A stretch of 44,038 nucleotides of DNA from Candidatus Gottesmanbacteria bacterium RIFCSPHIGHO2_01_FULL_46_14. Its GTDB lineage: Bacteria; Patescibacteriota; Microgenomatia; UBA10105; UBA927. The stretch spans positions 1-44,038 of the forward strand of contig MFJJ01000033.1 in NCBI GenBank assembly GCA_001780895.1. The letters run 5' to 3'. Each line of letters opens with the position of its first letter. Position 1 is the stretch's first letter. Of the stretch, positions 3-16,801 are shown one piece after another. The notes under the pieces were generated by a model. It was not told the DNA's origin, ran no database searches, and saw only the letters and a program-made list of their open reading frames with translations. The position numbers were made by a program, and so were the translations under genes.

Positions 3-1157
3 ACACGCATTCCCGGGTTGCTATTATCTTGTCCCAGTCAGAGGGCAATGCCTTGGTATTGCCAATATCTGCAAAACGACGAAACCGTTCGTCAAATCAC
101 ATCATACGCATCAGTTTCGTCGAGAAATCTCGCAATTTCCACTGTGCTATTTGTCACTACGGTTCTCTCGTTTTTCTACTTTCGACTGAACAGACGAATT
201 TTTTTTATCTCAGTTACCGGCCTTATGATTCTCTGGGTGAGTTACTATGCCAATAAACTACTTTACTTTTCCGATAGAGCAAACGAGTATCCGGCGATTC
301 CGGTTATTACCAGGCTAAAAGAACTCGCTGGTATAGACCGTGTCTGGAGTTATGGAGATGCACACATCATACGGAATATTCCTTCCGAATTTGGTCTATA
401 CTCCCCAGAGGGTTATGAAGCGCTCTTTTCACACCGCTACAATATGCTTCTTAATACTATTAGAACGAGGGGAGCGTTGTCATCTGATATTGCCCGTACC
501 GATGCAACGCTTTCCGAAACAGGACAGTTTGAGATCATGCCAAGCCATCCCTGGAGGCAGAGACTGCTGTCGCTTTTAGGAGTTAAGTATATATTGGAAT
601 ACAAAGGCAACAGTAACCCGGACCGTCCGGCAAGTGAACGATTTCCATCGAAAGTTTATTCTATATCCTGGGAAGATGATACCTGGAGAATTTGGGAATA
701 CAAAAAAGTGCTCCCAAGGGCATTTTTTGTGACTCATTATATCGTTGAGAACGATGATCAGAAAATTATTGACGCGCTCTACAGTCCCTCAGTCGACCTT
801 AGAAAAACGGTGGTTCTCGAGGAAACACCGCCTGGCTTTGCGGGTAATGTAGCAGACGATGCAACTGTTTCCATCACGAACTATGAACCGGAAAAGGTTG
901 AGCTGTCTGTTGAAGCTCAACGTGATGGGCTCGTATTTCTCTCCGATACGTATGATCCTGGATGGAAAGCGATGGTCGATGGGAAGGAAACAAAAATTTT
1001 CCGCGCAAACTTTACTTTCCGCGCCGTCGTTGTGCCGCGGGGTTCTCACCAGATACTGTTTACTTACGATCCACTCTCGTTTCGGATTGGTCTATGGACA
1101 AGCATTGTTTCGGTCATTATAGTTTGTATTGTAATAATCCGTAAGCATGAAGCGTAA
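3..1157 (+). CDS. YfhO family membrane protein, C-terminal part (truncated at window start)
   Basis: Frame is open to the window edge; C-terminus 'SDTYDPGWKAMVDGKETKIFRANFTFRAVVVPRGSHQILFTYDPLSFRIGLW' matches the end of the complete paralog at 7359-9497. Confidence 0.8.
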   Translation, partial: TRIPGLLLSCPSQRAMPWYCQYLQNDETVRQITSYASVSSRNLAISTVLFVTTVLSFFYFRLNRRIFFISVTGLMILWVSYYANKLLYFSDRANEYPAIPVITRLKELAGIDRVWSYGDAHIIRNIPSEFGLYSPEGYEALFSHRYNMLLNTIRTRGALSSDIARTDATLSETGQFEIMPSHPWRQRLLSLLGVKYILEYKGNSNPDRPASERFPSKVYSISWEDDTWRIWEYKKVLPRAFFVTHYIVENDDQKIIDALYSPSVDLRKTVVLEETPPGFAGNVADDATVSITNYEPEKVELSVEAQRDGLVFLSDTYDPGWKAMVDGKETKIFRANFTFRAVVVPRGSHQILFTYDPLSFRIGLWTSIVSVIIVCIVIIRKHEA

Positions 1158-2760
1158 TCTGTTGCTTGTCCTGATCGTTTTTGTTGGATTGTTTTTGCGA
1201 CTTTACAACCTGTCTGAGATTCCTGTTGGCCTTCATGGTGATGAGGTAAGCATAGGCTATAATGCGTATTCGCTTCTTAAAACCGCCCGGGACCAGGATG
1301 GTAATTTCCTCCCGCTTTCATTTGATCAGTTCGGAAATTTCAGAGCTCCGGGCTACGAGTATATAGATATTCCCTTTGTGGCCATTTTAGGGCTCAACGC
1401 ATTGGCTGTACGATTGCCTGCCGCGATTTTCGGATCATTAACAGTTTTAATTTTTTACTATTTTTTGCTTGAATTTTTTGGAAAAAAATCAAGTGCATTG
1501 CTGGGATCGTTTCTTCTGGCAATCTTGCCATGGCATATTAATATCTCGCGTGCAAGCTCTGAAGCGGTAATCGCCTCGTTTTTTGTAATTTTTGGCATAT
1601 ACCTTGTTTATAGGGATAAGTATATTTGGGGTTTTGCTTCGTTTCTCATAAGTTTTTTCTTTTATCATGCCGCAGGACCTTTTGTTTTGGTATTTTTACC
1701 CTTTCTGTTTGTATTATCAAAACGTAATCGTTGGAGATCTTGGATCGTTTATGCGGTACTCATTATTGGATTTGTGGTTTTTTTGACAGCTGGAAGCGGA
1801 AAGGGGCGCGTATCGCAAGTCAGTCTCCTCAATATTCCGGGAGGAACACGGGATCTCATTCAGTCAATGGACGAAGATGGATCTCAAAACCCGCTGCTTA
1901 CTCGCTTTTATCATAATAAACTTTATTTTTACGGCAGATTATTTACGACATTCTTCTCTCAACATATTTCACCGGATTTTTTGTTTGTTAATAACGGTAA
2001 ACCGGAACGGTATCGATTATATTGGGTAGGCAATTTATATTTTATTGAGGCGCCATTTCTTGTCTTTGGGTTTGCCGTGTTGCTGGTCGAAGGAATAAAA
2101 AAGAAAAAGTATCCTTGGTTACTGCCGCTTGTATGGCTTATCGCTGGTATTGTCCCGGCAGCGCTTACCTGGGAAGATATCCCAAACGTATTGCGCGCTA
2201 ACCTCATGATTCCGGCGCTTGTCATGATCATAGCATTTGGATTCTTTGAAGCATTAACACTGACGAGAGGATTCGTAAAAACCCTCTTTATCGGCATCTG
2301 TGCGTTTCTGCTTTTCCAAAATACTTCCGTATTTTTGCACAACTATTTTTACCATTCCAAAATCCATGAACCCTGGTTTCGGAGTGCGAGCGAGGAAGAT
2401 GTTGTGTTTACGGCGGATGAGTTATCCAGGCAATATCAGGAAGTAGTGATGAGCACTGAAAGAAATAATAATCTCATATTTCACCTTTTTTATCTTAAGT
2501 TTGACCCACTAGAGTTTCAACGCTTGGGTTCACCCAAAGAAGAGGATGGTCTCAGATTTAGCAAGCTCGTTTTTCGCTACGGACCGTGCCCCATTGAGCA
2601 GTTTAAGCTTGAAAGTGAAGAGCGCTTATTAAAAGCCGTTTTTATTGTTAAATCAAGCGAATGCGAGATTAATCCCCTCAAGTGGGAGACAATCAAAACG
2701 ATTTCGACTCCGGACGGTCTTCCTGCATTTTACGTTGTTCGTCGATTATCACAAGTTTGA
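1147..2760 (+). CDS. PMT/GT39-type GT-C glycosyltransferase
   Basis: Multi-TM protein; 'LRLYNLSEIPVGLHGDEVSIGYNAYSLLKTARDQDGNFLPLSF...LAVRLPAAIFG...LPWHINISR' matches the other window paralogs. Confidence 0.85.
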   Translation: MKRNLLLVLIVFVGLFLRLYNLSEIPVGLHGDEVSIGYNAYSLLKTARDQDGNFLPLSFDQFGNFRAPGYEYIDIPFVAILGLNALAVRLPAAIFGSLTVLIFYYFLLEFFGKKSSALLGSFLLAILPWHINISRASSEAVIASFFVIFGIYLVYRDKYIWGFASFLISFFFYHAAGPFVLVFLPFLFVLSKRNRWRSWIVYAVLIIGFVVFLTAGSGKGRVSQVSLLNIPGGTRDLIQSMDEDGSQNPLLTRFYHNKLYFYGRLFTTFFSQHISPDFLFVNNGKPERYRLYWVGNLYFIEAPFLVFGFAVLLVEGIKKKKYPWLLPLVWLIAGIVPAALTWEDIPNVLRANLMIPALVMIIAFGFFEALTLTRGFVKTLFIGICAFLLFQNTSVFLHNYFYHSKIHEPWFRSASEEDVVFTADELSRQYQEVVMSTERNNNLIFHLFYLKFDPLEFQRLGSPKEEDGLRFSKLVFRYGPCPIEQFKLESEERLLKAVFIVKSSECEINPLKWETIKTISTPDGLPAFYVVRRLSQV

Positions 2761-4312
2761 ACACGGCAGAACTATCTCCTCGTTTGACTGTCGAGAGGGT
2801 AATAGCGCCTGGTACATCTTCACAGGTTCCAAAGTTGGCATAGAGCGTGCCTGGACTGCCGGTGATTGTTTGTATACCGTCTTTTTTTACTAGTCGGATC
2901 GGGCATTCTTCGGTAGTAAAGACATAGTTATCAAACGATGTCCTGTCGCGATCATCACCGGGAAGTTCACGCGTTTCGGCAATAAATTTAGCCGGATCGT
3001 ACTTGTTGTAAAAGAGGAAAAAAACTGTGGGAGCCGTTTCTCGGTTGGTAATAACGAAGCTGGTAAATTGATTTTTCCGTTTCTGTACTTGCGCAACTAA
3101 CTCTTTATATCCCTCATGACGATACAAGGTACGATGAACTGGTAGATGGATATAGTAAGCATGAAGAAAAGCTATAAGGCTCACACAATAGCTTATTGTC
3201 ACGAAGTTTCGGAACTTCAATATTTTTTCTAAACCGATGGCGGCAATGATTGAAAGGGCGGGAAATGCCAATAGCGTCCGCTGAAGGTTTGGAACATCGT
3301 CAAAAGCCAAGCTGCTTCCGACGGGCGCGATGAGTATCCACCCGAGTAAAAGTTTTGATTCCCACGATCTCTTGTTGATAAGTGTGACAGCGCCGATTAT
3401 AAGTAGTGGAAGTTCAATAAGATAAATGAGTGGAGCACCGGGGATGCGGTAGCGTTCAGGAAGACCTTTATCGGTAAATAAAAACGCATATGAAAAATGC
3501 GAGAAGTAATTTTCTAAGAACTGCCCGGCAAATCCCAGTGGTTTGTTATGGAATATACGAGAGAAAATCGGTTTTACGCCACGAACACCATCCTCACGGA
3601 TCGCTTCTTCGGCGGTAAGCTGCACATTGCCGCTGGCTGGGATTCCAACGGTACGAAGTCGTAAGGATAATGCTGGCGAAGCGAGTATAAACGCGATTGG
3701 CAGGATAATGAAGATAAGAAAACGCACAATGTTTGTTCGAATATGCGATTTAGCTCCCAGGAAGATAAGAAGCGGGACAAAGAACGGCAAGAACGCTCGT
3801 GGTGCTTGATACAGGAGCATTGAAATACTAAAAGACATAAATGCAAGAATAAAACGCTTGCGCAAGAAGAGGAGACAGCCGACTGTAATAAGGAAAACGA
3901 CTACAACGTTTTCAATTGCGGTCCTCGAGAGATTAATATGCCAGGGAGAGATAGCAAGAAGAAAAGATGAGATAAGCGCCAATCGGTAGGATTTGAATAG
4001 TTCGAAGACAAGAAAATACGTTACCAAGATAGTGGCGATGCCGAACACAGCCGACGGAAGGCGGACCGAAAATTCATTAAGACCAAACATTGCGACAGGT
4101 GGAATCGCTAAGTACGAGTAGCCTGCAGGACTATTTATAAATGATCGCAAATGGAGAGGGAGGAAATTTCCATTCATGTCCCGGCCAGTCTTGAGGATCG
4201 AGTAGGCGTTATAGCCCAAGAATGCCTCATCTCGATGAAACCCAGCAGGAAGGGAGCCCAACAGGTATAATCGAAGTACAGTGGCCAAAAGCAATATAAG
4301 AAATAATTTCAC
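2693..4312 (-). CDS. PMT/GT39-type GT-C glycosyltransferase
   Basis: 'LRLYLLGSLPAGFHRDEAFLGYNAYSILKTGRDMNGNFLPLHL'. ORF track starts at 4480, but alignment of the N-terminus with paralogs supports one of the tandem GTG codons at 4315/4312. Confidence 0.8.
   Translation of the reverse strand: MKLFLILLLATVLRLYLLGSLPAGFHRDEAFLGYNAYSILKTGRDMNGNFLPLHLRSFINSPAGYSYLAIPPVAMFGLNEFSVRLPSAVFGIATILVTYFLVFELFKSYRLALISSFLLAISPWHINLSRTAIENVVVVFLITVGCLLFLRKRFILAFMSFSISMLLYQAPRAFLPFFVPLLIFLGAKSHIRTNIVRFLIFIILPIAFILASPALSLRLRTVGIPASGNVQLTAEEAIREDGVRGVKPIFSRIFHNKPLGFAGQFLENYFSHFSYAFLFTDKGLPERYRIPGAPLIYLIELPLLIIGAVTLINKRSWESKLLLGWILIAPVGSSLAFDDVPNLQRTLLAFPALSIIAAIGLEKILKFRNFVTISYCVSLIAFLHAYYIHLPVHRTLYRHEGYKELVAQVQKRKNQFTSFVITNRETAPTVFFLFYNKYDPAKFIAETRELPGDDRDRTSFDNYVFTTEECPIRLVKKDGIQTITGSPGTLYANFGTCEDVPGAITLSTVKRGDSSAVFKLVIIDEQRKMQEDRPESKSF
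4266..4271 (+). promoter_or_regulatory. Candidate -10 box (TATAAT) for the gene at 4281
   Basis: Perfect TATAAT 9 nt upstream of GTG 4281; lies inside the opposing CDS 2693-4312. Confidence 0.45.
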
Positions 4313-5795
4313 CACTCTTATTATAGTCTTTCTTGTAGCTATTAATATCTTCCTTTCCTCTTGGAGTGTCCTCCACGGTGACATTAATTTCATTTCGGAT
4401 GTTGCCCGCGATATGTTTTTGCTTGATGAAATACGACAAAAAACATTCGTTCTCATCGGGCCCAGAGCAAGCGGACTCATGTTTCATGGGCCGCTTTGGT
4501 CGTACCTCAACTATCCCGGATTTGTTATTGGCGGCGGTAATCCTGTTTTCGTAGGTTGGTACTGGATATTTCTCATCATTGTATTTCTGGTAGCCGGTTA
4601 TGTCATCGCCAAGCGTTTGTTTAATAAAATTACAGCGACGCTGTTTGTACTCATGGCGTCCTTGTACCTGGCGTTTCATGCAAATTCGCTGTCAAATCCA
4701 AACGGAGGCATGTTTGCCATTCCGTTCTTTTTCTTTTTTTTCATTCGATACATACAAACTTTAAGAATCCGATTTCTCATTTTTCATATAGTGACGGCCG
4801 CAGCAATGGTTCAGTTCCAGATTGCTATGGGAGTGCCCTTTCTTTTTCTCTCTGTTCTGTTTACAACAGTGTTTGTCATAAAAAAACGAAAAGCAAACCA
4901 TATTTTGGCATATGCGCTTGTTCCTCTGTTGCTTGGTAATTTTATTGTGTTTGACATAAGGCATGAATTTCTCATTGCAAAAAATGCATTTCGTCATCTG
5001 GGGACTATTGATTCAAACGTGACCATGTGGGACCTTGTTGTTGATCGCGCGAGGAATATTCTGACCGGAATGGAATTTTTGCGATTTGGGCCACCGAATG
5101 GCCAAACGTACGCAATTATCATATTTTTTGTTTTTATAACTATCCAAATTAAAAACAATATTCATCGCGGTATTTATCTTGTATTTCTCTATTTTTTCTT
5201 TGGGTTTTTCGTCTTGAGCCTTGCAAACAGATTTCCGCTTCTTTCCTTTTACGTTTTTCCGCTCCACCCATTTGTGTTTCTCATGTTTGCTTCTTTTATT
5301 ACGTCTCCTCATAAACGGGTGTTTGTCTGTATTTTTACGGTTATATATGTCCTCAATCTCGTTGGTATCTACAACTACATAAATGATTTGAATCATTTTA
5401 TTGGGAAGAATCAGTATTCATGGAAAGCAGTTTTTACTGCCGCAAGCACTATCTACCAAGACGACGAGAAAGAATTTGGGTATTTTATCTATTCCCCGGA
5501 TATTTTAGGATATGGTCCGCGATATGCTATGGAGTATGCAAAAAAAGTCTATGACAAAAACGGATTTGGATATCAGAAAAAACCGATTACATACCTGTTG
5601 ATTGAACCACCGGCTCGAGACAACCCTTTCACTTCAGAGGAGAAGTGGAAGCTCTACCAAATACATATCTATTCAACTCCCGTTATGGTAAAAACGTTTG
5701 ATAACGGATACAAAGTAGAAAAGCACCTCCTAAATGCCGGAGAAATAGTAGTTCCATTTGATCCGGGAATTAACCCCGGTCTTCATTATAGATAA
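4281..5795 (+). CDS. GT-C-like membrane glycosyltransferase ('LIGP' subfamily)
   Basis: GTG start; 'FISDVARDMFLLDEIRQKTFVLIGPRASGLMFHGPLWSYL' matches 11052-12464 and 19305-20696. Confidence 0.75.
   Translation: MAKSNIRNNFTTLIIVFLVAINIFLSSWSVLHGDINFISDVARDMFLLDEIRQKTFVLIGPRASGLMFHGPLWSYLNYPGFVIGGGNPVFVGWYWIFLIIVFLVAGYVIAKRLFNKITATLFVLMASLYLAFHANSLSNPNGGMFAIPFFFFFFIRYIQTLRIRFLIFHIVTAAAMVQFQIAMGVPFLFLSVLFTTVFVIKKRKANHILAYALVPLLLGNFIVFDIRHEFLIAKNAFRHLGTIDSNVTMWDLVVDRARNILTGMEFLRFGPPNGQTYAIIIFFVFITIQIKNNIHRGIYLVFLYFFFGFFVLSLANRFPLLSFYVFPLHPFVFLMFASFITSPHKRVFVCIFTVIYVLNLVGIYNYINDLNHFIGKNQYSWKAVFTAASTIYQDDEKEFGYFIYSPDILGYGPRYAMEYAKKVYDKNGFGYQKKPITYLLIEPPARDNPFTSEEKWKLYQIHIYSTPVMVKTFDNGYKVEKHLLNAGEIVVPFDPGINPGLHYR
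4320..4325 (-). promoter_or_regulatory. Candidate -10 box (TATAAT) for the gene ending at 2693
   Basis: Perfect TATAAT on the minus strand, 7 nt before GTG 4312 (4 nt before GTG 4315); lies inside the opposing CDS 4281-5795. Confidence 0.5.
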
Positions 5796-7372
5796 GAAGG
5801 AATCACGCCAAATTGTGCTACGCGAAGCATACGCGATTTATACTGATCAGGAATTCTTTCCGGGTAATCTACGAGAAGCGCATTCGGATAAAAAATATCC
5901 CGCTCCCAGTCTATCTGTCTGAATTGATAGCGACCAAACACACGGACGTGACAGAAGCCGTCGGGCGTGGGATCGTACCGTTCGACTTTTTTCTGAAAGA
6001 GCGCTGGGTTTTCTTTTCCGTAAAAAGCAAGAAAAATATACGGTGACGTTTCGGGATTGGCTATGATGATCGTTTTTGGTTGTTGTAGAGGAAGGTTAAT
6101 ATAGTGTAACAATTCTTTATATCCCACTCCCCACGCTGCTACCTCTGTTTTTGGAAAATGAACATAGTATCGATCGAGATAGAGAGCGATGTTGATTGAG
6201 TACAGGAACACTATAAGGATTAGGACAGTTCGTCGACGAAGAAGAATTTCTAATCCCATTGCGACAACGATGGGAAGAGCTGGGAAAATTGCGAACATTC
6301 GATTTGTATGCGGCGCATCTTTTGTGATACTTGCTGCGATGGGAGAAATCGCGATCCACCACAAGAGAAAAAGGTAGGATCGTTTTTTTCTGTTTATAAG
6401 ACATACAAAAAGTCCGATCAGGAGAAATGGTGCTTCGACGAGATACATGTTGCCGAAGTTTGGAATGTTGTGCGCTCCGTTTGTGCCCCCTGATATAAAG
6501 AGAAACTGTGGTGAAAAGGACCTGATGTAATTATCGGAAATTGTTTCTATCGAGTAAAAAAGACGGTTATGGAAAACAACGGCCAATAGCCCGGGAGTGG
6601 AATGTTCGGATCGGGGTAGTTCAATGCGCTCGTGAACAACAAACGGGTCTCCGAGCAGCCCAATGCCGGACAATTTCGTTGTGTCAGCCCCCAGCAGTGT
6701 GTGATAGAGAATAAATCCAACGAGAACAATAAATAGAAGAGCACCCATTATGGAGAATTTAGTTTTGTTAATCTGGGACCAATAGAGAGCAACAAATCCG
6801 ACGATAAGGAGTGTTGTTGATATATGGTTTCCGTGATAGGTGTAATAGGTAAGCGCGAGCAACACGGCTGCCGGTATAACAAGAAATTGTTTGCGAAAAC
6901 TTTTAAAAAGCAGGAAGAATCCAGTCGCCGTTAGCAGGACGGCGACGTTCGACTCGGATTCAACCCGCGAGAGATGAAGATCCCATGGCGCTATGGCAAC
7001 GAGAAAAGTTGAAAGAAGGGCTAATCGTTCTGATTTAAAAAGCTCCCGTACCAGGTAAAACGTTACAAGTACGGTGAGTATTCCGGCGATCGCCGAAGGC
7101 AAACGCACAGCTACTTCCGTCATTCCCAACGTAGCGACGAAAGGGACAGTAATATAGATATAGAGAGGGAGTTTCCAGTCCCCAAACGATTGAAAAGAAA
7201 TGGGCAAAAACTTTCCGTACTCGTCGCGTCCGGTTTGAAGAAGGCTATATGCTGTAAATCCTATGCTTGCCTCATCGCGGTTTACTCCGGGGGGAACTTG
7301 ATCCAACCGAAAGAAGCGAAGAAAAAGAGCAAGAGCCGTGATTATCAGGAGAATAATGCTATTTCTTTTCAT
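5786..7372 (-). CDS. PMT/GT39-type GT-C glycosyltransferase
   Basis: 'LRFFRLDQVPPGVNRDEASIGFTAYSLLQTGRDEYGKFLPISFQSFGDWKLPLYIYITVPFVA'; GGAG precedes the ATG. Confidence 0.85.
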   Translation of the reverse strand: MKRNSIILLIITALALFLRFFRLDQVPPGVNRDEASIGFTAYSLLQTGRDEYGKFLPISFQSFGDWKLPLYIYITVPFVATLGMTEVAVRLPSAIAGILTVLVTFYLVRELFKSERLALLSTFLVAIAPWDLHLSRVESESNVAVLLTATGFFLLFKSFRKQFLVIPAAVLLALTYYTYHGNHISTTLLIVGFVALYWSQINKTKFSIMGALLFIVLVGFILYHTLLGADTTKLSGIGLLGDPFVVHERIELPRSEHSTPGLLAVVFHNRLFYSIETISDNYIRSFSPQFLFISGGTNGAHNIPNFGNMYLVEAPFLLIGLFVCLINRKKRSYLFLLWWIAISPIAASITKDAPHTNRMFAIFPALPIVVAMGLEILLRRRTVLILIVFLYSINIALYLDRYYVHFPKTEVAAWGVGYKELLHYINLPLQQPKTIIIANPETSPYIFLAFYGKENPALFQKKVERYDPTPDGFCHVRVFGRYQFRQIDWERDIFYPNALLVDYPERIPDQYKSRMLRVAQFGVIPSYL

Positions 7373-9497
7373 ATCTCCATAATAAGGCAGCCAGAGTCAG
7401 AATGGAAATGATCGTTATCATAATTCCTAATCGAACGGATTGTGGTTCGTAGGAAAACATTACTTCATGACTGCCGGCAGGAATGACGACCGCGCGCATT
7501 GTGTGATTGGCCCTCCGAACCTCGGTTTTTTTGCCGTCGATTCTGGCAATCCAGCCGGGATAGTAGGTATCGGAGAGTACGAGCGTATCTGGCGCATTCG
7601 TACTTACGGTAAGATCGACACGATTTGGTGTATATGAATCTATATGCACGATACCAGTACGCGATTCAAGTACCGCACGAGGTACTGCGTCTTTATTTTC
7701 ATATACGATCCAGCCGTCGCTATCATAAATCTTGGTCAAACTTGCAGGAGCTACTGTCTGATTTTCCACTCGGTCAAGGATGTATTTGACACCCAAGTTG
7801 TTAAGTAGGGTAAGCCGATCGGTGTTGTTGATCAAATCTCGTGACCCATAGCCTGGTGTAACCTGTGCGTCTGATCGAGACGTTTTACCTCCTTTACTTG
7901 ACGTTAAATATTCGCCGTACCATGCCGGATAGAGAGGATCATACCCTTCAGGAGAATAGAGTCCGAGTTGGGTAGCAAAATTTGCTTCGATTGCCGCTGT
8001 TCCGAATCCCCAAATTCGATTAGTCTCGGCCCTATCTTTGAGGAACGTGACGATAGCGGTTGTTGGATAGAAGAGATCAGCCGGAACAAAAGGATTGAAT
8101 TTTTGAAATGCATAGAAGAGATCGGCTGTATGAATAAATAAGAGTATGGTGAGGGCCAGTACCATATACTTTTTTTTGCCAACTCCGATAAAAAACAGTG
8201 CGAGCGCGGCGGCAGAAAAAATTGCTCCGTAAATCAGTGATCTTGTTCCATACCCCAGAAGTCTTGTCATGAGAAAACCCAGTCCCAAAAGAATGATGAC
8301 TAGGAGAGATCGCTTCATAAGCTTTTTTATGGTATGTGGTTCCCGTAAAAAGAGATCAAGGCCAATGCCTGTTAAAATCGCGAGACACAATTGAAAAAGA
8401 AATATAAAAAGCGTAGGACTACTAGTTCTCAACTGAGGAATCCGGTAGAGGAGAATGGTGAGCGGGTTTTTTGTTGCCAGTAGGAGAATAACGCCAGCGG
8501 TGATCATAAATATATGTTTTAATTTATTTTTAGATCGGAGAATGGCCGGAAGGAAAAATAAAGGTACGAGTCCGATCGAGAGCACTTTTCCGATATAAGT
8601 GTCAGTGAGTATATAGTTGCGTGTTGCCGGGTTTCCAAAAAAGTCAGGAAAAACCAGCATGATAAGTTGTTGAGGTTGGATAAGGACATTGTTCACAAAA
8701 AACTCGTATGGATGCGCGTTTCGAGCAGAGTTAAGCGCCAGTTCGATGCCCGGAATAAGTTGAACAGCACTAATGCCAAGAGGAATCAGAATGACTGAAA
8801 TTTGTAGTCGACCGGTTCTAACTCTGAGGTATATGAGGGAAAATAAGTAGACCATTGTTGCAATCTGTGGATGTCCTGCAAAAAAAGGGAGAGACAGAGA
8901 AAGAATGAGTATAAGAGTCCAGCGATTTTCAATGGCTAAAAGTGCTAAGGGCAACCATACTATGACGTGGCCGATCGTATTATACTCAAGCCAGACAGTC
9001 ATGAATGAGCCATAGGAAAAGCTTATGGAAGCAAGAGCCGAGGCCATTGGGTGAAGACCGATTTTCCGGCAATACCAGTAGGAGAAAAAACTCGATAACG
9101 CCGGCTGCAAGAATACGAGAATGCTCCATGCCAGTGGCTGCGAAAAAAGAAAATAGAGTAGCGAAAGGGGGTAGAGTGCCGAGGACTGGAAGTTTGCCAG
9201 CAGCGGCGCGCCAGAAAAATTATGAGGATTCCACAAAGGAAGATTTCCAGATTTGAGTTGTTCGATGACTTGTGTTTTCCATGGATAGAGTTGCTTGAAG
9301 GTGTCCGGATACTGCGCTTTGTTGGGGTAACTTCCTGGATTGTATCCGAGGATTGAATATGAGCGCCACGGCTTGTATTCAGCAATGAGGAGGTCTCCGG
9401 GGAAGGGAAGTTGACCCAAAAGAAAAAACTTATAAAAAAATACTCCGGCAACGAGAGTGCTCGTGATTAATGATAGAAATATTTCTTTTTTACCCAT
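7359..9497 (-). CDS. YfhO family membrane protein
   Basis: 712 aa multi-TM; 'GDLLIAEYKPWRSY...YPWKTQVIEQLKSGNLPLWNPHNFSGAPLLANFQSSALYPLSLLY' and C-terminal 'SDTYYPGWIARIDGKKTEVRRANHTMRAVVIPAGSHEVMFSYEP'. Confidence 0.88.
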   Translation of the reverse strand: MGKKEIFLSLITSTLVAGVFFYKFFLLGQLPFPGDLLIAEYKPWRSYSILGYNPGSYPNKAQYPDTFKQLYPWKTQVIEQLKSGNLPLWNPHNFSGAPLLANFQSSALYPLSLLYFLFSQPLAWSILVFLQPALSSFFSYWYCRKIGLHPMASALASISFSYGSFMTVWLEYNTIGHVIVWLPLALLAIENRWTLILILSLSLPFFAGHPQIATMVYLFSLIYLRVRTGRLQISVILIPLGISAVQLIPGIELALNSARNAHPYEFFVNNVLIQPQQLIMLVFPDFFGNPATRNYILTDTYIGKVLSIGLVPLFFLPAILRSKNKLKHIFMITAGVILLLATKNPLTILLYRIPQLRTSSPTLFIFLFQLCLAILTGIGLDLFLREPHTIKKLMKRSLLVIILLGLGFLMTRLLGYGTRSLIYGAIFSAAALALFFIGVGKKKYMVLALTILLFIHTADLFYAFQKFNPFVPADLFYPTTAIVTFLKDRAETNRIWGFGTAAIEANFATQLGLYSPEGYDPLYPAWYGEYLTSSKGGKTSRSDAQVTPGYGSRDLINNTDRLTLLNNLGVKYILDRVENQTVAPASLTKIYDSDGWIVYENKDAVPRAVLESRTGIVHIDSYTPNRVDLTVSTNAPDTLVLSDTYYPGWIARIDGKKTEVRRANHTMRAVVIPAGSHEVMFSYEPQSVRLGIMITIISILTLAALLWRYEKK

Positions 9498-11050
9498 ATA
9501 AGTAATAAGAAGAGCAGTGTGCTGACACTTACTACGTTAGCAATCAAACGTACCGGCGTGTGACCAAAGGCAACGCGTACCGAATGTTGACCCGGGGGTA
9601 CTGAGAAGGTAATGAGACCGCGCCAATTAATATCCTGAAACTCTATAGGAACTTGCGTGCCATCGACGTATGCCCGCCAACCCGGAAAATACTGGGTATT
9701 ATCGACAATCGTGCTTTCCGTGGTTGATGAAACTTGAAACGTATGTTGTGTTGAACGCTTTTCAATATTCGTCACTATCGTATCTCCTGATGCAACTTGG
9801 ATTGGTGAGGGTGGGTAAGACTGGTGAGGACCAGCAGACCAAACCACGTCCGTTTCACCATAATACGTCGTATTTAAAGGATAGTTCCAGTAAAATCCTT
9901 CATCGCTGACGGTATCAAATCCAAGAGGCGGATTCCAAAAATAGAGCGTGGAGACAATAACCAACGCGAGAGTTCCACAATACATAAGAGGTTTTTGGAA
10001 TACGCGCATCCGCATAAGCAGTCCCGATGCGAGTGTCGTCATGATGACAAATATCGAGAGGAATCGCCAGGGGAATTGAAATTGGCGTAAGATCGGAAAA
10101 TATCTCCAGAGGAATGAAGAGATCGGTTGCATAAAAAATAAAGCAATGAGTGACCATAGAATTATGTAACGCCATAGGGTTTTGTCGCGGGCAAAAAAGA
10201 GAGCGATAACGTGGAAGATGCCAATTTGAACAGAAATGCCTTCTGTTAAAAAAGTTGGAGCGTTTGTAAAATTAGGGATAAAGAGTTGATAAAGTTGCGG
10301 AAAATGCATCTGAAATACGTCTTTCATAAATAAATCACCATAGGTGAATTTTCGCTCGACGATCGCCGGGAGCCAGTACGTCGCGGAAAGTGCAAGTGCC
10401 CCGGCGAGTGCTCCGGCTTGGTAAACCCGAACACGCCACGTCTTACTTGTCACAAATGCAAACGTAGCTGCGAGTGCAAAAAATAGGAGGCTCACCGAGT
10501 TATGGCTCAGGATAAGGAAAGCTCCAGCGACAGCAGTTATAAAAATATTTTTCCGAACTATGCCGTACAAGACAAATGGGAACGCCGCGTATGTGTACGC
10601 TTCACCAAAACTTCCCCGAACGTGCGTTTCCACGAGCCGAAACGGCGCAAACTGATAAAATACAGTGGCGAAAAATGCGATTCGGTCATTGCGCCAAAAC
10701 TCCCGCGAAAACATAAACATTCCAATTCCTGAAAAAACAAAGCTTAGAGCCAAAACAACTTTGAATGTATTGACGAGTCCTAAACCGAGAGAAATAAACG
10801 GCACAGAAACCAAATACGGCGTGTGGTAAATAAAGTTAAATAGCGGCATGCCATAACCATAATTGAGATCTGATGCCCACCTGGGGAGGATTTGACCACC
10901 GGTTATCGCTTTATAATAGGCAGCCATTCTGGCCAAATGTACGGGGCCATCGTGGGTATGAGGAATGTCATTTGTAGTGAAAAAAGGAATAAACGGGAGC
11001 AGTGAGATTGCAACAATGAGCAAATACTGATGTAATACTGATAATCTCAT
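9467..11050 (-). CDS. PTPS-related-domain multi-spanning membrane protein
   Basis: 'HTHDGPVHLARMAAYYKAITGGQILPRWASDLNYGYGMPLFNFIY' plus C-terminal 'YFPGWRAYVDGTQVPIEFQDINWRGLITFSVPPGQHSV'; paralogous to 20689-22206 and 27744-29189. Confidence 0.8.
   Translation of the reverse strand: MRLSVLHQYLLIVAISLLPFIPFFTTNDIPHTHDGPVHLARMAAYYKAITGGQILPRWASDLNYGYGMPLFNFIYHTPYLVSVPFISLGLGLVNTFKVVLALSFVFSGIGMFMFSREFWRNDRIAFFATVFYQFAPFRLVETHVRGSFGEAYTYAAFPFVLYGIVRKNIFITAVAGAFLILSHNSVSLLFFALAATFAFVTSKTWRVRVYQAGALAGALALSATYWLPAIVERKFTYGDLFMKDVFQMHFPQLYQLFIPNFTNAPTFLTEGISVQIGIFHVIALFFARDKTLWRYIILWSLIALFFMQPISSFLWRYFPILRQFQFPWRFLSIFVIMTTLASGLLMRMRVFQKPLMYCGTLALVIVSTLYFWNPPLGFDTVSDEGFYWNYPLNTTYYGETDVVWSAGPHQSYPPSPIQVASGDTIVTNIEKRSTQHTFQVSSTTESTIVDNTQYFPGWRAYVDGTQVPIEFQDINWRGLITFSVPPGQHSVRVAFGHTPVRLIANVVSVSTLLFLLLIWVKKKYFYH
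11040..11045 (+). promoter_or_regulatory. Candidate -10 box (GATAAT) for the gene at 11052
   Basis: 5/6 match to TATAAT, 6 nt before ATG 11052; inside the opposing CDS. Confidence 0.4.
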
Positions 11051-11051
11051 T

Positions 11052-12464
11052 ATGAGAATTATAGCAAAGATAGCACCATTTTTTATTGTACTGCTATCCT
11101 TGATTCTAAGACTCTATAACATAGAGCAGTTTGCGGAATTTTTGGGAGATCAGGGAAGGACCGGTATCATCGTCTATGAAGCCTGGCGCGACCGGACAAT
11201 TCCCCTTATCGGACCGACGGTGTTAACCGGTCAGCATTTGGGTCCGGCTTGGTATTACCTCATCGGCCCGTTTTATATCCTTTCGAGATTTAATCCTCTC
11301 GGACCGGCAGTTGGAATGGCACTTTATGGCGCTTTGGCTACACTTACACTCTACCTTCTCACAAAAAAATTGTATGGCCCTTTTATCGGATCACTCGTTG
11401 CACTTCTTTGGTCAGTATCGCCTTTAATAGTGCGACAGGATCAAACTATTTGGGAACCGAATCTCGTACCATTATTTGTTCTCGTGTTTCTTCTGGGTCT
11501 CAAAAATCGCAATTACCTTCTTCTTTGGGGAGCGTGTGGAGTACTTGTTCAACTCCATATACCCAATATTATTTTCATCCCGATTGCGATAGTCGTTTCG
11601 CGAAGATGGAAGCCTGCGTTTGCAGGCGTTCTGTTGTTTTTGCTCATTCAAGTGCCGTTTTTTGTGTATGAGACGCAACACGGATTTAGAGATATTGTCG
11701 GAGTTATGAATGTCATGAGTCAGCCGAGCGCGTTTTCAAAGACCCAGTTTCTTATGTCTTTTATTGACTACACATCTCGAGTGTTTTTTCGGGCAATACC
11801 TACGGGAAATCAAGTTGCCATGATCGTTATTCAGCTGATGTTGGGACTCCTCCTTCTGGTCAGCAAAAGTCGTTGGAATATTTTTTTATTGGCAATCTAT
11901 GTATTCGGAATTGCTGCAATGGCAAGATACCAGGGGCTCGTTCACGATCACTATCTTAATTTCCTACTGCCGTTTCCCTTTCTCTTTATTGCCAATGGGC
12001 TCCGCATCGTTCATAAATACTCGAAATTGGGAACAGTTCTTGTGGGGAGCATTCTTATTATCTGGCAAATAACAAAGCCCGGGTATTTTCCCCAACCCAG
12101 AGGCGATATTGATCGGGTTGGGGAGGGAGCAAGTGCCATTGTTCAAGATGCGCAGGGGTTTTCATATTCATTTACCGTGATCGGCTCGCCGTCATTTAAC
12201 GATCTTCACTACCGGTATTTTTTCTTACTCAACCATTCCGTTCCCGCTGACATTCGTACACATAATGTAGACAAACTTTATGTTATTTGTGAAATAGGGA
12301 ATATGTGCCCAAATCTCGACCAGCATGCAGTGATTAATGTGATGTGTTTTGATGCCCACTGTGAGGGCGAGTACCCAAAGCTCAACTTGTGGGAATGGAA
12401 TTATGAAAAAACTATTCCTGTTGGAAGTAGTTTTATCTTCGTCTTTGGTACAATAAAAGCATGA
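11052..12464 (+). CDS. GT-C-like membrane glycosyltransferase ('LIGP' subfamily)
   Basis: 'FLGDQGRTGIIVYEAWRDRTIPLIGPTVLTGQHLGPAWYYLIGPFYI'. Confidence 0.78.
   Translation: MRIIAKIAPFFIVLLSLILRLYNIEQFAEFLGDQGRTGIIVYEAWRDRTIPLIGPTVLTGQHLGPAWYYLIGPFYILSRFNPLGPAVGMALYGALATLTLYLLTKKLYGPFIGSLVALLWSVSPLIVRQDQTIWEPNLVPLFVLVFLLGLKNRNYLLLWGACGVLVQLHIPNIIFIPIAIVVSRRWKPAFAGVLLFLLIQVPFFVYETQHGFRDIVGVMNVMSQPSAFSKTQFLMSFIDYTSRVFFRAIPTGNQVAMIVIQLMLGLLLLVSKSRWNIFLLAIYVFGIAAMARYQGLVHDHYLNFLLPFPFLFIANGLRIVHKYSKLGTVLVGSILIIWQITKPGYFPQPRGDIDRVGEGASAIVQDAQGFSYSFTVIGSPSFNDLHYRYFFLLNHSVPADIRTHNVDKLYVICEIGNMCPNLDQHAVINVMCFDAHCEGEYPKLNLWEWNYEKTIPVGSSFIFVFGTIKA
11058..11066 (-). promoter_or_regulatory. Candidate extended -10 (TGCTATAAT) for the gene starting at 11050
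   Basis: Consensus TGnTATAAT, hexamer ends 7 nt before ATG 11050; inside the opposing CDS. Confidence 0.55.
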
Positions 12465-13678
12465 ACCTTGCCGCAATCAATGCCATTGTCCTGTTTGTCT
12501 TGGCTATTCCTATGGTCATGAAGTATCGCATCCTGCCGATTGAAGGAACACCATATTGGCTATTTGGTATCTTGTTTATCCTTCTTGTTGCTAATGTCGT
12601 TGTATCACTTTTTTCAAAAGAGAGGAGGCTTTCCTATATTTGTATATTTACGAGCATTGCAATTTCCCTTGGGGGTGTGCTTTGGACTTCTATGGTTGAT
12701 CGAAGCAGAACCGCACCTGCCTTGGGAGTTCACGACATTATTCTTCAGCAGGAGGCGGCGATGCGCTATGTAATTGAAGGAAAAAATCCGTATAAAGAAA
12801 CGTATTTCGGTACACCGGTTGAATCCTTTCATTATGCCGATAGTACGGGTAAATCGGCGATCAATCCGGCTCTTTACCATTTTGTGATGCCGCCGTGGTA
12901 TCTCATACTCCCTTTCCTCTTTTATTTTCCGGCAACTTCAATCCTCGGGTTTTTTGACGGACGGATGGTGTTGGGTGCCGGCATGATCGTGACGGTAATT
13001 CTCCTCTGGCGATGGTTTCGCGATAAAGAATTGGGAATTCTCACGATCCTTATTACCGCGTTGTCTCCGGCAACCGTTGATTATTTCATCGAGGGAAGAA
13101 GTGATGGATTTGTGCTCCCGTGGCTTGTCGGTGCATTGTTTGCACTTGACCGTAGAAAGTGGTTCGTGAGCGCGGTTCTTATGGGGTTTTCCCTTATGAG
13201 TAAACAAACGACGTGGATCCTCTTGCCCTATTTTGTTGGTTTTCTGTGGATGAAGCGAAAACGTATGCCGTTACTCGTTACAGCGAGCGTCGTTGCCTTA
13301 CTCTCTCTCCCGTTTTTTTTATGGGACGCAGGCGCATTTATCGAAAGCACGATCTTGTATCTAAGTGGCAACAGTGCTACCAGCTATCCAGTTTCAGGAT
13401 ACGGATTGGGAATGGTGTTATATGAACTGGGTTTCATAAAAGATCTCCACGCCTACTATCCATTTCTATTCTGGCAGATGCTCGTAACGATTCCAGCCTT
13501 AGTTTTGGGATTTCGATGGCTTAAAAAAACGATGAAAATATCCTCTCTCATTCTCGTGTATGCATTGACACTATTTCTCTTCTGGTACACGAGCCGGTAT
13601 TTTAATAATAGTCATGCAGGTTTTTTGTCTTGGATTTTTGTTCTTGGAACAATGAGGTATATCGATGAAAAATCTTAA
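12461..13678 (+). CDS. GT87-like (DUF2029-type) membrane mannosyltransferase
   Basis: Multi-TM; 'HDIILQQEAAMRYVIEGKNPYKETYFGTPVE...ALSPATVDYFIEGRSDGFVLPWLVGALFALDRRKWFVSAVLMGFSLMSKQTTWILLPYF'. Confidence 0.65.
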   Translation: MNLAAINAIVLFVLAIPMVMKYRILPIEGTPYWLFGILFILLVANVVVSLFSKERRLSYICIFTSIAISLGGVLWTSMVDRSRTAPALGVHDIILQQEAAMRYVIEGKNPYKETYFGTPVESFHYADSTGKSAINPALYHFVMPPWYLILPFLFYFPATSILGFFDGRMVLGAGMIVTVILLWRWFRDKELGILTILITALSPATVDYFIEGRSDGFVLPWLVGALFALDRRKWFVSAVLMGFSLMSKQTTWILLPYFVGFLWMKRKRMPLLVTASVVALLSLPFFLWDAGAFIESTILYLSGNSATSYPVSGYGLGMVLYELGFIKDLHAYYPFLFWQMLVTIPALVLGFRWLKKTMKISSLILVYALTLFLFWYTSRYFNNSHAGFLSWIFVLGTMRYIDEKS

Positions 13679-15230
13679 ATACGTTGCCCTTTTAGGAATT
13701 GTCCTGTTCGGATTCGTTTTACGAATCTATAAGGTTTCATCCATACCACCTTCCTTGACGTGGGACGAGGTGTCTATCGGATACAATGCCTATTCGATCC
13801 TCAAAACCGGACACGACGAGCACGGAAGGTATTTCCCTTTTGACACATTCGCGGCCTACGGTGACTACAAACCGCCAATTCCCATTTATCTCACTGTCCC
13901 GTTTGTTGCAGTATTTGGGCTCAATGAACTGGCGGTTCGATTGCCTTCGGTGCTGGCCGGGACGTTCACTATTTTATTCGTGTATTTTTTTGTCAAAGAA
14001 CTCTTTGGTAACGAGGAGGTATCAATGCTCACGTCGCTGCTTCTAACGATTTCTCCTTGGCACATTCAACTCTCACGGGCGGGGTTTGAAGCAAATATCG
14101 CGTTATTTTTTGTGGTTTTGGGTTCGTATCTCATTCTCAAGAAGAAGTTTTTAATCTGTTGGACTGGGTACGTCGCGGCGATTTATACGTTTAATAGCGC
14201 CAGATACGTCGTGCCGTTTTTGTCTATTATTTTCTTCGTCTACGTAAGAAAAGATCTTCTTGCCTATAAAGGAAAAATAGCCAAGGGTTTATTGATTGCA
14301 TTCATTTTAATTCTTCCCATAGTGCCGCACTTACTGTCGAAGGAGGCGAGGATTCGGTTTTCAGAAGTAAATATTTTTTCTGATCCAGGGCTAGTGCTAA
14401 CGGCAAATGACCGTATGGCCCTTGATGGTGGTCTATGGGCGAATATTTTTCATAATCGTCGGATAGGATATATGCGTTCCTATCTTTTGCATTTTTTTGA
14501 TAACCTCGAACCACGCTTTTTATTCACCCGGGGTGACGGCAATCCTAAATTCTCTCTCCAGGATGTTGGCGAGTTTTATCTCGTTGAGGTACCATTTTTT
14601 ATTTTGGGCTTTATTTGGTTATTTCGTAACCAGCGTCGTATCGTCTGGGTGCTTGTGGGATGGATCATTGCATCAATTATTCCGGCAGCCACAGCACGCG
14701 AAACACCGCACGCACTGCGCATTGAAAACACCTTACCTGCGTTTCTTATCGTCATCTCCTACGCAATTTCACAAATGACACGCAAGCGAATTTTTACCAT
14801 CGGTATTGTCGTCCTGTATGCAGCCAATTTTTCCTTTTTTTGGCACAACTACATGAATCACTACGCAACAGAATTTTCCGGCGAATGGCAGTATGGGTAT
14901 AAACAAGCACTTGTTGCGATTAGGCCCTACCGTGATCAATATAAACAAATAGTAATAACAGAAAGCATTGGAAGGCCGTATATGTATGTCTTGTTTTATG
15001 AAAAAATCGACCCTTCGACGATAAAAGATTTACTGTCATCGTATTTTGACGCAGATGGGTTTTATCATGTTACCCGCGTAGGCAAATATGCGTTTGTCAA
15101 AGAAGTGATCGGTTTTGAAAAAGATACACTGTATGTCTTGACGCCTCGTGAGGTCCACCCGAAGGCACAAATTCTCGGTGAAATTCAGCTTCTCAATGGT
15201 ACAAAATATCTCAGTATTTTTGATATATGA
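13665..15230 (+). CDS. PMT/GT39-type GT-C glycosyltransferase
   Basis: 'LRIYKVSSIPPSLTWDEVSIGYNAYSILKTGHDEHGRYFPFDTFAAYGDYKPPIPIYLTVPFVAVFGLNELAVRLPS'. Confidence 0.87.
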   Translation: MKNLKYVALLGIVLFGFVLRIYKVSSIPPSLTWDEVSIGYNAYSILKTGHDEHGRYFPFDTFAAYGDYKPPIPIYLTVPFVAVFGLNELAVRLPSVLAGTFTILFVYFFVKELFGNEEVSMLTSLLLTISPWHIQLSRAGFEANIALFFVVLGSYLILKKKFLICWTGYVAAIYTFNSARYVVPFLSIIFFVYVRKDLLAYKGKIAKGLLIAFILILPIVPHLLSKEARIRFSEVNIFSDPGLVLTANDRMALDGGLWANIFHNRRIGYMRSYLLHFFDNLEPRFLFTRGDGNPKFSLQDVGEFYLVEVPFFILGFIWLFRNQRRIVWVLVGWIIASIIPAATARETPHALRIENTLPAFLIVISYAISQMTRKRIFTIGIVVLYAANFSFFWHNYMNHYATEFSGEWQYGYKQALVAIRPYRDQYKQIVITESIGRPYMYVLFYEKIDPSTIKDLLSSYFDADGFYHVTRVGKYAFVKEVIGFEKDTLYVLTPREVHPKAQILGEIQLLNGTKYLSIFDI

Positions 15231-16801
15231 AAAAATATTTGTTTTTTGGAATTATTATGATTGCAGCCGCTTTGCGGCTTTGGCAGATTGGACAAGTGCC
15301 CGCAAGTCCGGACTGGGATGAAGCAGCGTTAGGCTACAATGCCTATTCCGTTCTTAAGACCGGTCGGGATGAGTATGGGACGTGGTTTCCCATGGTGCTT
15401 CGCTCCTTCGACGATTATAAACCGCCTTTATATATGTATTTGACTATTCCATCTGTTGCAATTTTTGGTCTCGAAACGTGGGCAGTGAGATTACCATCGG
15501 CGATAGCAGGGGTTTTGGCAGTGGTTGGTACGTATTGTTTGGTACTGGAGCTTTTTAAATCCCGGCGATTGGCTCTAATCGCCTCATTTCTGTTAGCGAT
15601 TTCTCCGTGGCATATCCAGTTTTCCCGGATTGCGTTTGAGGCAAACATTGGCGTGACCATTAATATCTGGGCCGTTTATTTGTTTCTCAAGGGTCTGCAA
15701 AAAGAAAAACTACTAATGATTTCAGCCTTTTTATTTGGTTTAGGTTTTTACGCGTATCATAGCGAACGTATATTTCTTCCGCTTCTCGTGGTGATATTAT
15801 CCTTGATATTTCGACAAGAGCTTGCCAAAAGGCGCCGAGAGGTATTGGTTGCGGCAATCATTGGGTTTATTACGATTGCTCCGATACTCTTTACATTTTT
15901 GGATCCGGCGACACTCTCGCGTCTTCGAGGAACGAGTTCATTTGCCGATCAAACACCACTTCTTTCTCGAAGCGTTGCAAAGCTCGAACAGGATCAAAGA
16001 ACCGGAAATCCGTGGGGAGTGATTTTTGATAATCGCCGTCTCGTATGGATGAGTACTGTAGTGGAAGGATATCTATCTCATTTTTCTCTCAAATGGATAT
16101 TTTTAACGGGTGATAATCCAAGGCATCACGCGCCAGATACCGGCCTCCTGTATCTTGTCGAGCTTCCGTTTGTTTTGTGGGGTTTGTATCATCTTGTTAT
16201 TGACTGGAAAGAAAAATCGTCTCGACTTATTCTCTTTTGGTTTTTAGCAGCTCCGATTGCAGCAGCCCCAACGACAGGGCTTCCCCATGCCATTCGGACT
16301 CTGGTATTTCTGCCGACGTTTCAGATCATGACGGCTATCGGAATCAAAAAACTTCCTTCTCGTTTTTTTCCGTTTTTCGTTTTGGTGTTTGTCCTCAATG
16401 TTATCTTCTATCTTCATATGTACTTTGGACATATGAATCGTGAATACTCACAGTTCTGGCAATACGGATATAAACAGGCGGTAGATTATGTTAAAGCCAA
16501 CAATAGAAAATATAAAAAAATTGTCGTCTCGATCCAGCTTGAGCAACCATACATATTTTTCCTCTATTATCTTGCATACGACCCCGCCAAATACTTGGCT
16601 CAAGGTGGTACAAAGTCAGGAGGATTTGAAGAAGTGCGAAACAAATTTGATATTTTTGAATTCCGTCCGATCGACTGGGACCGCGAAAAGCGAAACCGTG
16701 ATGAGCTTTACATCGGGACTCCAAAAGAAATCCGCGGGTCTGTTTTGCAGTCGATTCTGTATCTGGATGGAAGTGAAGCGATCCGTATTGCCCAGCAGTA
16801 A
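15227..16801 (+). CDS. PMT/GT39-type GT-C glycosyltransferase
   Basis: 'LRLWQIGQVPASPDWDEAALGYNAYSVLKTGRDEYGTWFPMVLRSFDDYKPPLYMYLTIPSVAIFGLETWAVRLPS'. Confidence 0.87.
   Translation: MKKYLFFGIIMIAAALRLWQIGQVPASPDWDEAALGYNAYSVLKTGRDEYGTWFPMVLRSFDDYKPPLYMYLTIPSVAIFGLETWAVRLPSAIAGVLAVVGTYCLVLELFKSRRLALIASFLLAISPWHIQFSRIAFEANIGVTINIWAVYLFLKGLQKEKLLMISAFLFGLGFYAYHSERIFLPLLVVILSLIFRQELAKRRREVLVAAIIGFITIAPILFTFLDPATLSRLRGTSSFADQTPLLSRSVAKLEQDQRTGNPWGVIFDNRRLVWMSTVVEGYLSHFSLKWIFLTGDNPRHHAPDTGLLYLVELPFVLWGLYHLVIDWKEKSSRLILFWFLAAPIAAAPTTGLPHAIRTLVFLPTFQIMTAIGIKKLPSRFFPFFVLVFVLNVIFYLHMYFGHMNREYSQFWQYGYKQAVDYVKANNRKYKKIVVSIQLEQPYIFFLYYLAYDPAKYLAQGGTKSGGFEEVRNKFDIFEFRPIDWDREKRNRDELYIGTPKEIRGSVLQSILYLDGSEAIRIAQQ

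Follow-up and report, generated by a model that had tools for sequence, protein, structure and literature searches.

Divergent genes with overlapping 5' ends and candidate leaderless promoters nested in each other's coding sequence in a Microgenomatia genome

Two membrane protein genes overlapping at their 5' ends

The window, i.e. the whole stretch of 44,038 nucleotides that was analysed, belongs to a genome of the class Microgenomatia (Patescibacteria, near Gottesmanbacteria), the assembly of which comprises 943 kb in 63 contigs. Within the window, two genes encoding membrane proteins are arranged head-to-head with overlapping coding sequences, and each of them overlaps tail-to-tail with a further neighbour:

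1147..2760, plus strand: PMT-family neighbour, overlapping tail-to-tail with the 3' end of the minus gene by 68 bp (2693-2760)
2693..4312, minus strand: coding sequence of the minus gene, a PMT/PMT_2 (PF02366/PF13231) glycosyltransferase-like membrane protein, with start codon GTG 4312 (or GTG 4315)
4281..4312, both strands: head-to-head overlap of the coding sequences, 32 bp (35 bp with the minus start at 4315)
4281..5795, plus strand: coding sequence of the plus gene, a 504-aa multi-TM membrane protein, with start codon GTG 4281
5786..7372, minus strand: PMT-family neighbour, overlapping tail-to-tail with the 3' end of the plus gene by 10 bp

The plus protein shows no Pfam match and is GT-C-like as judged by composition and context; its N-terminal TM region is common to homologs in other Microgenomatia. 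As intergenic DNA is absent around both genes, each promoter must sit in coding sequence, most simply in that of the divergent partner. The surrounding region of the window (1147-16801) carries paralogous genes for PMT-family membrane glycosyltransferase-like proteins, which alternate in orientation and overlap tail-to-tail.

The start codons were analysed by a dicodon coding model that is blind to promoters and homologs, and by comparison with homologs. The model selected 4281 for the plus gene and 4315 for the minus gene. GTG 4281 is the single possible ATG/GTG/TTG start of the plus gene; the in-frame stop on its 5' side lies at 4236-4238 and the long stretch lacking an alternative start, which had been pointed out in the preliminary description, extends as far as ATG 4413. 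In the closest homolog of the plus gene (L131, 51% identity), the start is found at the corresponding residue, and the alignments of the minus gene to its homologs (52-56% identity) begin at query residues 56-58 of the long ORF, which correspond to 4315/4312. A true divergent overlap is expected to have both starts backed by orthologs of equal length; both are supported here, although most N-termini of the minus homologs extend a few residues further, and the coordinates of the head-to-head overlap of 32-35 bp that had initially been proposed were confirmed. A displacement of one of the starts in relatives, which had been named as one observation that would speak against the overlap, was looked for and the starts were found at equivalent positions, while the upstream neighbours differ.

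Each of the two coding sequences contains, close to the start codon of the partner, a perfect match to the -10 consensus of sigma70-type promoters. The preliminary description had placed these hexamers 9 nt before the plus start and 4-7 nt before the minus start, and both were found there:

4266..4271, plus strand: TATAAT, candidate -10 element for the plus gene at a distance of 9 nt from GTG 4281; lies in the minus coding sequence at the Leu-Tyr codons TTA TAC
4320..4325, minus strand: TATAAT, candidate -10 element for the minus gene at a distance of 7 nt from GTG 4312 (4 nt from GTG 4315); lies in the plus coding sequence at the Ile-Ile codons ATT ATA
4278..4313, both strands: putative complementary 5' ends of both transcripts, ~35 nt, assuming that transcription starts ~7 nt after each -10 element
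4578..4583, minus strand: TACAAT, an alternative -10 element of the minus gene and rival promoter of a leadered transcript, 265 nt before GTG 4312

The start at 4312 fits the -10 element better than the start at 4315, because with an offset of 4 nt the latter would precede the position at which transcription is expected to begin. With a promoter matrix that was trained without the two focal genes, the sites score 6.7 (plus) and 6.2 (minus). Random 6-position windows reach these values in 0.7% and 0.9% of cases, respectively, and gene starts with an upstream gap or a divergent neighbour in 22%. Within 300 nt upstream, the plus site ranks best and the minus site second best. At neither of the two sites was an extended -10 motif (TGn), a match to a -35 element or the T at -23 that is typical of promoters in this genome found, and neither start codon is preceded by a purine-rich anti-SD match at the right spacing, i.e. 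by a Shine-Dalgarno (SD) sequence. TATAAT is not enriched in the window as a whole (35 found, 39 expected). High-scoring -10 elements were also detected before the own starts of homologs of the plus gene, namely TATAAT at offset 7 (L135), TATAAT at offset 8 (L168), CATAAT at offset 7 (L146) and TATTAT at offset 8 (L134).

Promoter elements at start codons throughout the genome

The genome-wide analysis covered sampled stretches totalling 580 kb with 523 called genes, of which 258, either divergently oriented or preceded by a gap of ≥40 nt, were scored for a 5/6 match to TATAAT at each offset. Such a match is located exactly 6 nt before the start in 24 of the 258 genes (background 2.9 per offset, P = 1e-14) and 9 nt before the start in 14 (same background, P = 2.5e-6), while SD-like 4-mers occur at control level (22 vs 17). 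An iterated matrix without any TTGACA prior recovered TTGACA, a 17-bp spacer and TGn-TATAAT; therefore, these are ordinary sigma70-type promoters located right at the start codons, which means leaderless transcription of the kind known from other bacteria (PMC3160421). An ATG is used as start codon by 46 of 51 leaderless genes, whereas both focal genes start with GTG (Fisher p = 0.009). Beside the peak at offset 6, the peak at offset 9 corresponds to a leader of 3 nt, and an in-frame start codon 3 nt upstream accounts for only 2 of its 14 genes.

The same signal was found beyond this genome. In the complete genome G011 of the same family, 11 genes each have the match at offsets 6 and 7 (background 1.7), and the pattern of -10 element and start codon recurs in the genomes G057 and G042 from other families and, more weakly, in G052. 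Analysed with the same pipeline, E. coli shows a -10 element at offsets 6-9 for only 1 of 115 genes and a strong SD signal (43 vs 10). In G057 (L098-L104), a strong -10 peak at offset 6 is seen as well for tandem genes separated by gaps of <20 nt (10/34, background 0.17), which suggests internal leaderless promoters within apparent operons. For the genome under study, no 16S rRNA with which the anti-SD could be checked is contained in the assembly. Initiation factor IF3 (PF00707) was likewise not found in the assembly but occurs in 92 of 96 relatives, among them the leaderless G011, and its absence is probably due to assembly incompleteness; a loss of IF3 as the cause of leaderless translation was rejected, as IF3 is kept in these genomes.

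Divergent gene pairs carry leaderless -10 elements more often than shifted controls do. At least one side is equipped with such an element in 38 of 60 pairs (8-14 in shifted controls) and both sides in 15 of 60 (0-1 in five shifted controls), and the median gap between divergent genes is 76 nt compared to 203 nt in E. coli (p = 0.002). Among these pairs, it is the focal one that combines a true overlap of the coding sequences with -10 elements that both lie inside the coding sequence of the partner. It would represent an extreme form of the leaderless architecture seen across the genome of this Microgenomatia lineage.

Several further pairs show related arrangements. In the same genome (C16), a DedA (VTT) gene on the minus strand and an RsmI-like TP_methylase gene on the plus strand start at 5363 and 5362 (L018:5340-5390), overlapping by 2 bp on CCATGG, and each -10 element is located inside the partner's coding sequence 6-7 nt from the start; this pair is a cleaner ATG/ATG version of the focal architecture. 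In the window itself, a second head-to-head pair has a gap of 1 nt (starts 11050/11052), and a strong -10 element is found on its minus side:

11058..11063, minus strand: TATAAT, 7 nt before ATG 11050 (minus), inside the coding sequence of the divergent gene starting with ATG 11052 (plus), score 11.1

The plus partner of this pair possesses only GATAAT at offset 6 (score -1.5). A third, abutting divergent pair of the window encodes a DUF5667 protein and a PMT_2 protein with a gap of 2 nt (41918/41921); here, TAGTGT at offset 6 on the minus side scores 9.0 and the plus side lacks a -10-like site. Moreover, near-palindromic -10 sequences (AGTATACT, ATGATATCAT) are common to divergent genes that are ~21-27 nt apart (L056:6961-6986, L021:6994-7020, L063:8172-8200, L115:1427-1449), i.e. 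these loci of Microgenomatia are candidate bidirectional promoters of the leaderless type. The L115 locus (genome G001) involves a homolog of the focal minus gene.

Origin of the overlap

The reading that we favour, and regard as probable, is that the focal locus consists of two face-to-face leaderless or near-leaderless promoters of the sigma70 type. The plus transcript would start near 4278, leaving a leader of ~3 nt before GTG 4281, and the minus transcript at ~4312-4313, so that GTG 4312 would be located at or beside its 5' end. The preliminary description had likewise suggested promoters nested in each other's coding sequence and near-leaderless starts, and given the genome-wide leaderless signal this is the expected reading. 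Neither a 5' UTR nor a ribosome-binding site would be required by such genes, and a -10 element might be written into the codons of the neighbour's first TM helix, whereby the divergent genes could have collapsed onto each other down to a coding overlap of 32 bp. Codons of TM helices may easily create -10 boxes on the antisense strand, which would aid compaction. Genome compaction permitted by leaderless initiation would be the simplest account, with the arrangement appearing as a by-product of this compaction and of transcription without leaders. Some mild interference between the two transcription units would follow physically and is probably a side effect. Directly observed are the anatomy of the sequence, the start codons, the lack of intergenic DNA and the genome-wide spacing of -10 element and start codon without SD sequences; the use of these two -10 elements and the ~35 nt of complementary 5' RNA are what we infer from them.

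Of the alternatives, the one that survives best holds that the two TATAAT hexamers are a coincidence of hydrophobic codons and that the true promoters are located farther upstream in the coding sequence of the neighbour, resulting in leadered mRNAs and a longer 5' overlap of the transcripts. A synonymous-codon null, which is stricter than the comparison with random windows, yields the exact hexamer in 4.6% (plus) and 10% (minus) of cases, ~0.5% jointly, and a 5/6 match in 20% and 58%, respectively, since TATAAT is what the complementary strand of Leu-Tyr and Ile-Ile codons in TM helices can read. In favour of this alternative are also the lack of TGn and -35 elements and the GTG starts, which are unusual among leaderless genes. 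For the minus gene a competing site is moreover available in the TACAAT 265 nt upstream, with a score of 7.7 that is within the range of the best site per random 300-nt stretch (75th percentile 6.9, 90th percentile 8.7). However, the plus gene has no better site inside 300 nt, leadered starts would be left without an obvious ribosome-binding site given that SD sequences are absent genome-wide, and both focal sites are located exactly at the offsets that are used throughout the genome. The evidence from the focal locus alone is real but modest, and it becomes strong only in combination with the genome-wide pattern. In view of the GTG starts, the missing TGn and -35 elements and the synonymous-codon expectation for the exact hexamer, the two leaderless promoters are therefore held as probable rather than certain, and leadered transcripts as conceivable, if rather unlikely.

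It was also considered whether the overlap constitutes a selected regulatory device, by which polymerase collision, antisense pairing or RNase III would bring about mutually exclusive expression. The predicted transcription starts are ~35 bp apart and would be directed at one another, the genome contains an RNase III-type gene, and in E. coli competition of opposed polymerases can repress one direction upon activation (PMC12825309). On the other hand, opposing E. coli promoters rarely interfere at basal activity (PMC12825309), and the compact arrangement is accounted for without regulation. The 5' ends of the RNAs show no special structure (z = +0.9 and +1.1). The pairing of the focal genes is absent from every relative examined and conservation therefore gives no support for a regulatory function. 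Judged from the sequence, mutual exclusion or antisense control of the two genes, which the preliminary description had raised, is possible; that the overlap was selected for it is improbable.

That the overlap is an annotation artefact, with one or both genes starting elsewhere, is very improbable, because homologs in other genomes back both starts: published long divergent overlaps were mostly due to mispredicted starts (PMC2478687), and most homologs of the minus protein extend a few residues further at the N-terminus, at a point where the focal genome reads ATA ATA AGA GTG in place of ATG, but with an upstream minus start the overlap would become larger, the downstream minus starts TTG 4294 or TTG 4288 would cut TM1 and still leave an overlap of 8-14 bp, the plus gene has no usable start before ATG 4413, which is past TM1, its start is identical in L131, and the focal overlap is below 60 bp.

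Returning to the two candidate leaderless promoters, transcription and translation initiation in uncultured Patescibacteria are poorly known, and no paper on leaderless genes in Patescibacteria was found in a literature search. From the locus and the genome-wide signal, a simple rule is obtained, namely that the -10 box precedes the start by 6-9 nt and that a ribosome-binding site is lacking. By this rule, gene starts in many metagenome assemblies could be corrected, and it accounts for the ability of divergent genes to overlap; such starts will be mis-called by gene finders that presuppose SD sites or bar divergent overlaps. As a speculation to which we assign a low probability, leaderless initiation may predominate among Microgenomatia genes that have a promoter of their own and may allow divergent genes to interlock physically, each promoter lying in the coding sequence of the partner, which at some loci might create a reciprocal switch between two membrane proteins of the surface-glycosylation type.

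Comparison with known systems

Leaderless (TA-led) bacterial genes were surveyed by Zheng et al. 2011 (PMC3160421) and are characterized by a TANNNT -10 element ~10-12 bp upstream of the start (a gap of 6-9 nt), the absence of an SD sequence, a 5'-terminal AUG and an mRNA 5' end at the start codon. The focal locus agrees with the spacing, having offsets of 9 (plus) and 7 (minus, GTG 4312), and with the absence of SD sequences at both starts. It differs in the start codon, which is GTG in place of AUG in both genes. GTG is tolerated as a leaderless start in some lineages such as the mycobacteria. The GTG starts weaken the membership of the focal genes in the leaderless group without excluding it. 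Candidate phyla are not named in the list of leaderless groups (PMC3160421), whereas the signal reported here is found in Microgenomatia, and the two focal genes combine GTG starts with a head-to-head overlap.

In the bidirectional promoters described by Warman et al. (PMC12825309), a symmetrical -10 element is shared by divergent mRNAs, with transcription starts flanking or within this element and 10, 18 or 23 bp apart. The close packing of opposed sigma70-type sites is similar, and other loci of the genome (AGTATACT and similar) fit this type well. The focal locus in contrast has separate -10 elements 48 bp apart, and the predicted transcription starts face each other at ~35 bp. The focal transcripts would hence overlap, unlike those from a shared -10 element, which leave back-to-back.

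Divergent overlaps were reported by Palleja et al. 2008 (PMC2478687) to represent ~1% of the well-characterised overlaps, and all those >60 bp in 338 genomes turned out to be mispredicted starts. As in divergent overlaps in general, the 5' coding ends overlap at the focal locus; it differs in that its overlap of 32 bp has homolog-supported starts, and in that the candidate promoters are located within the coding sequence of the partner.
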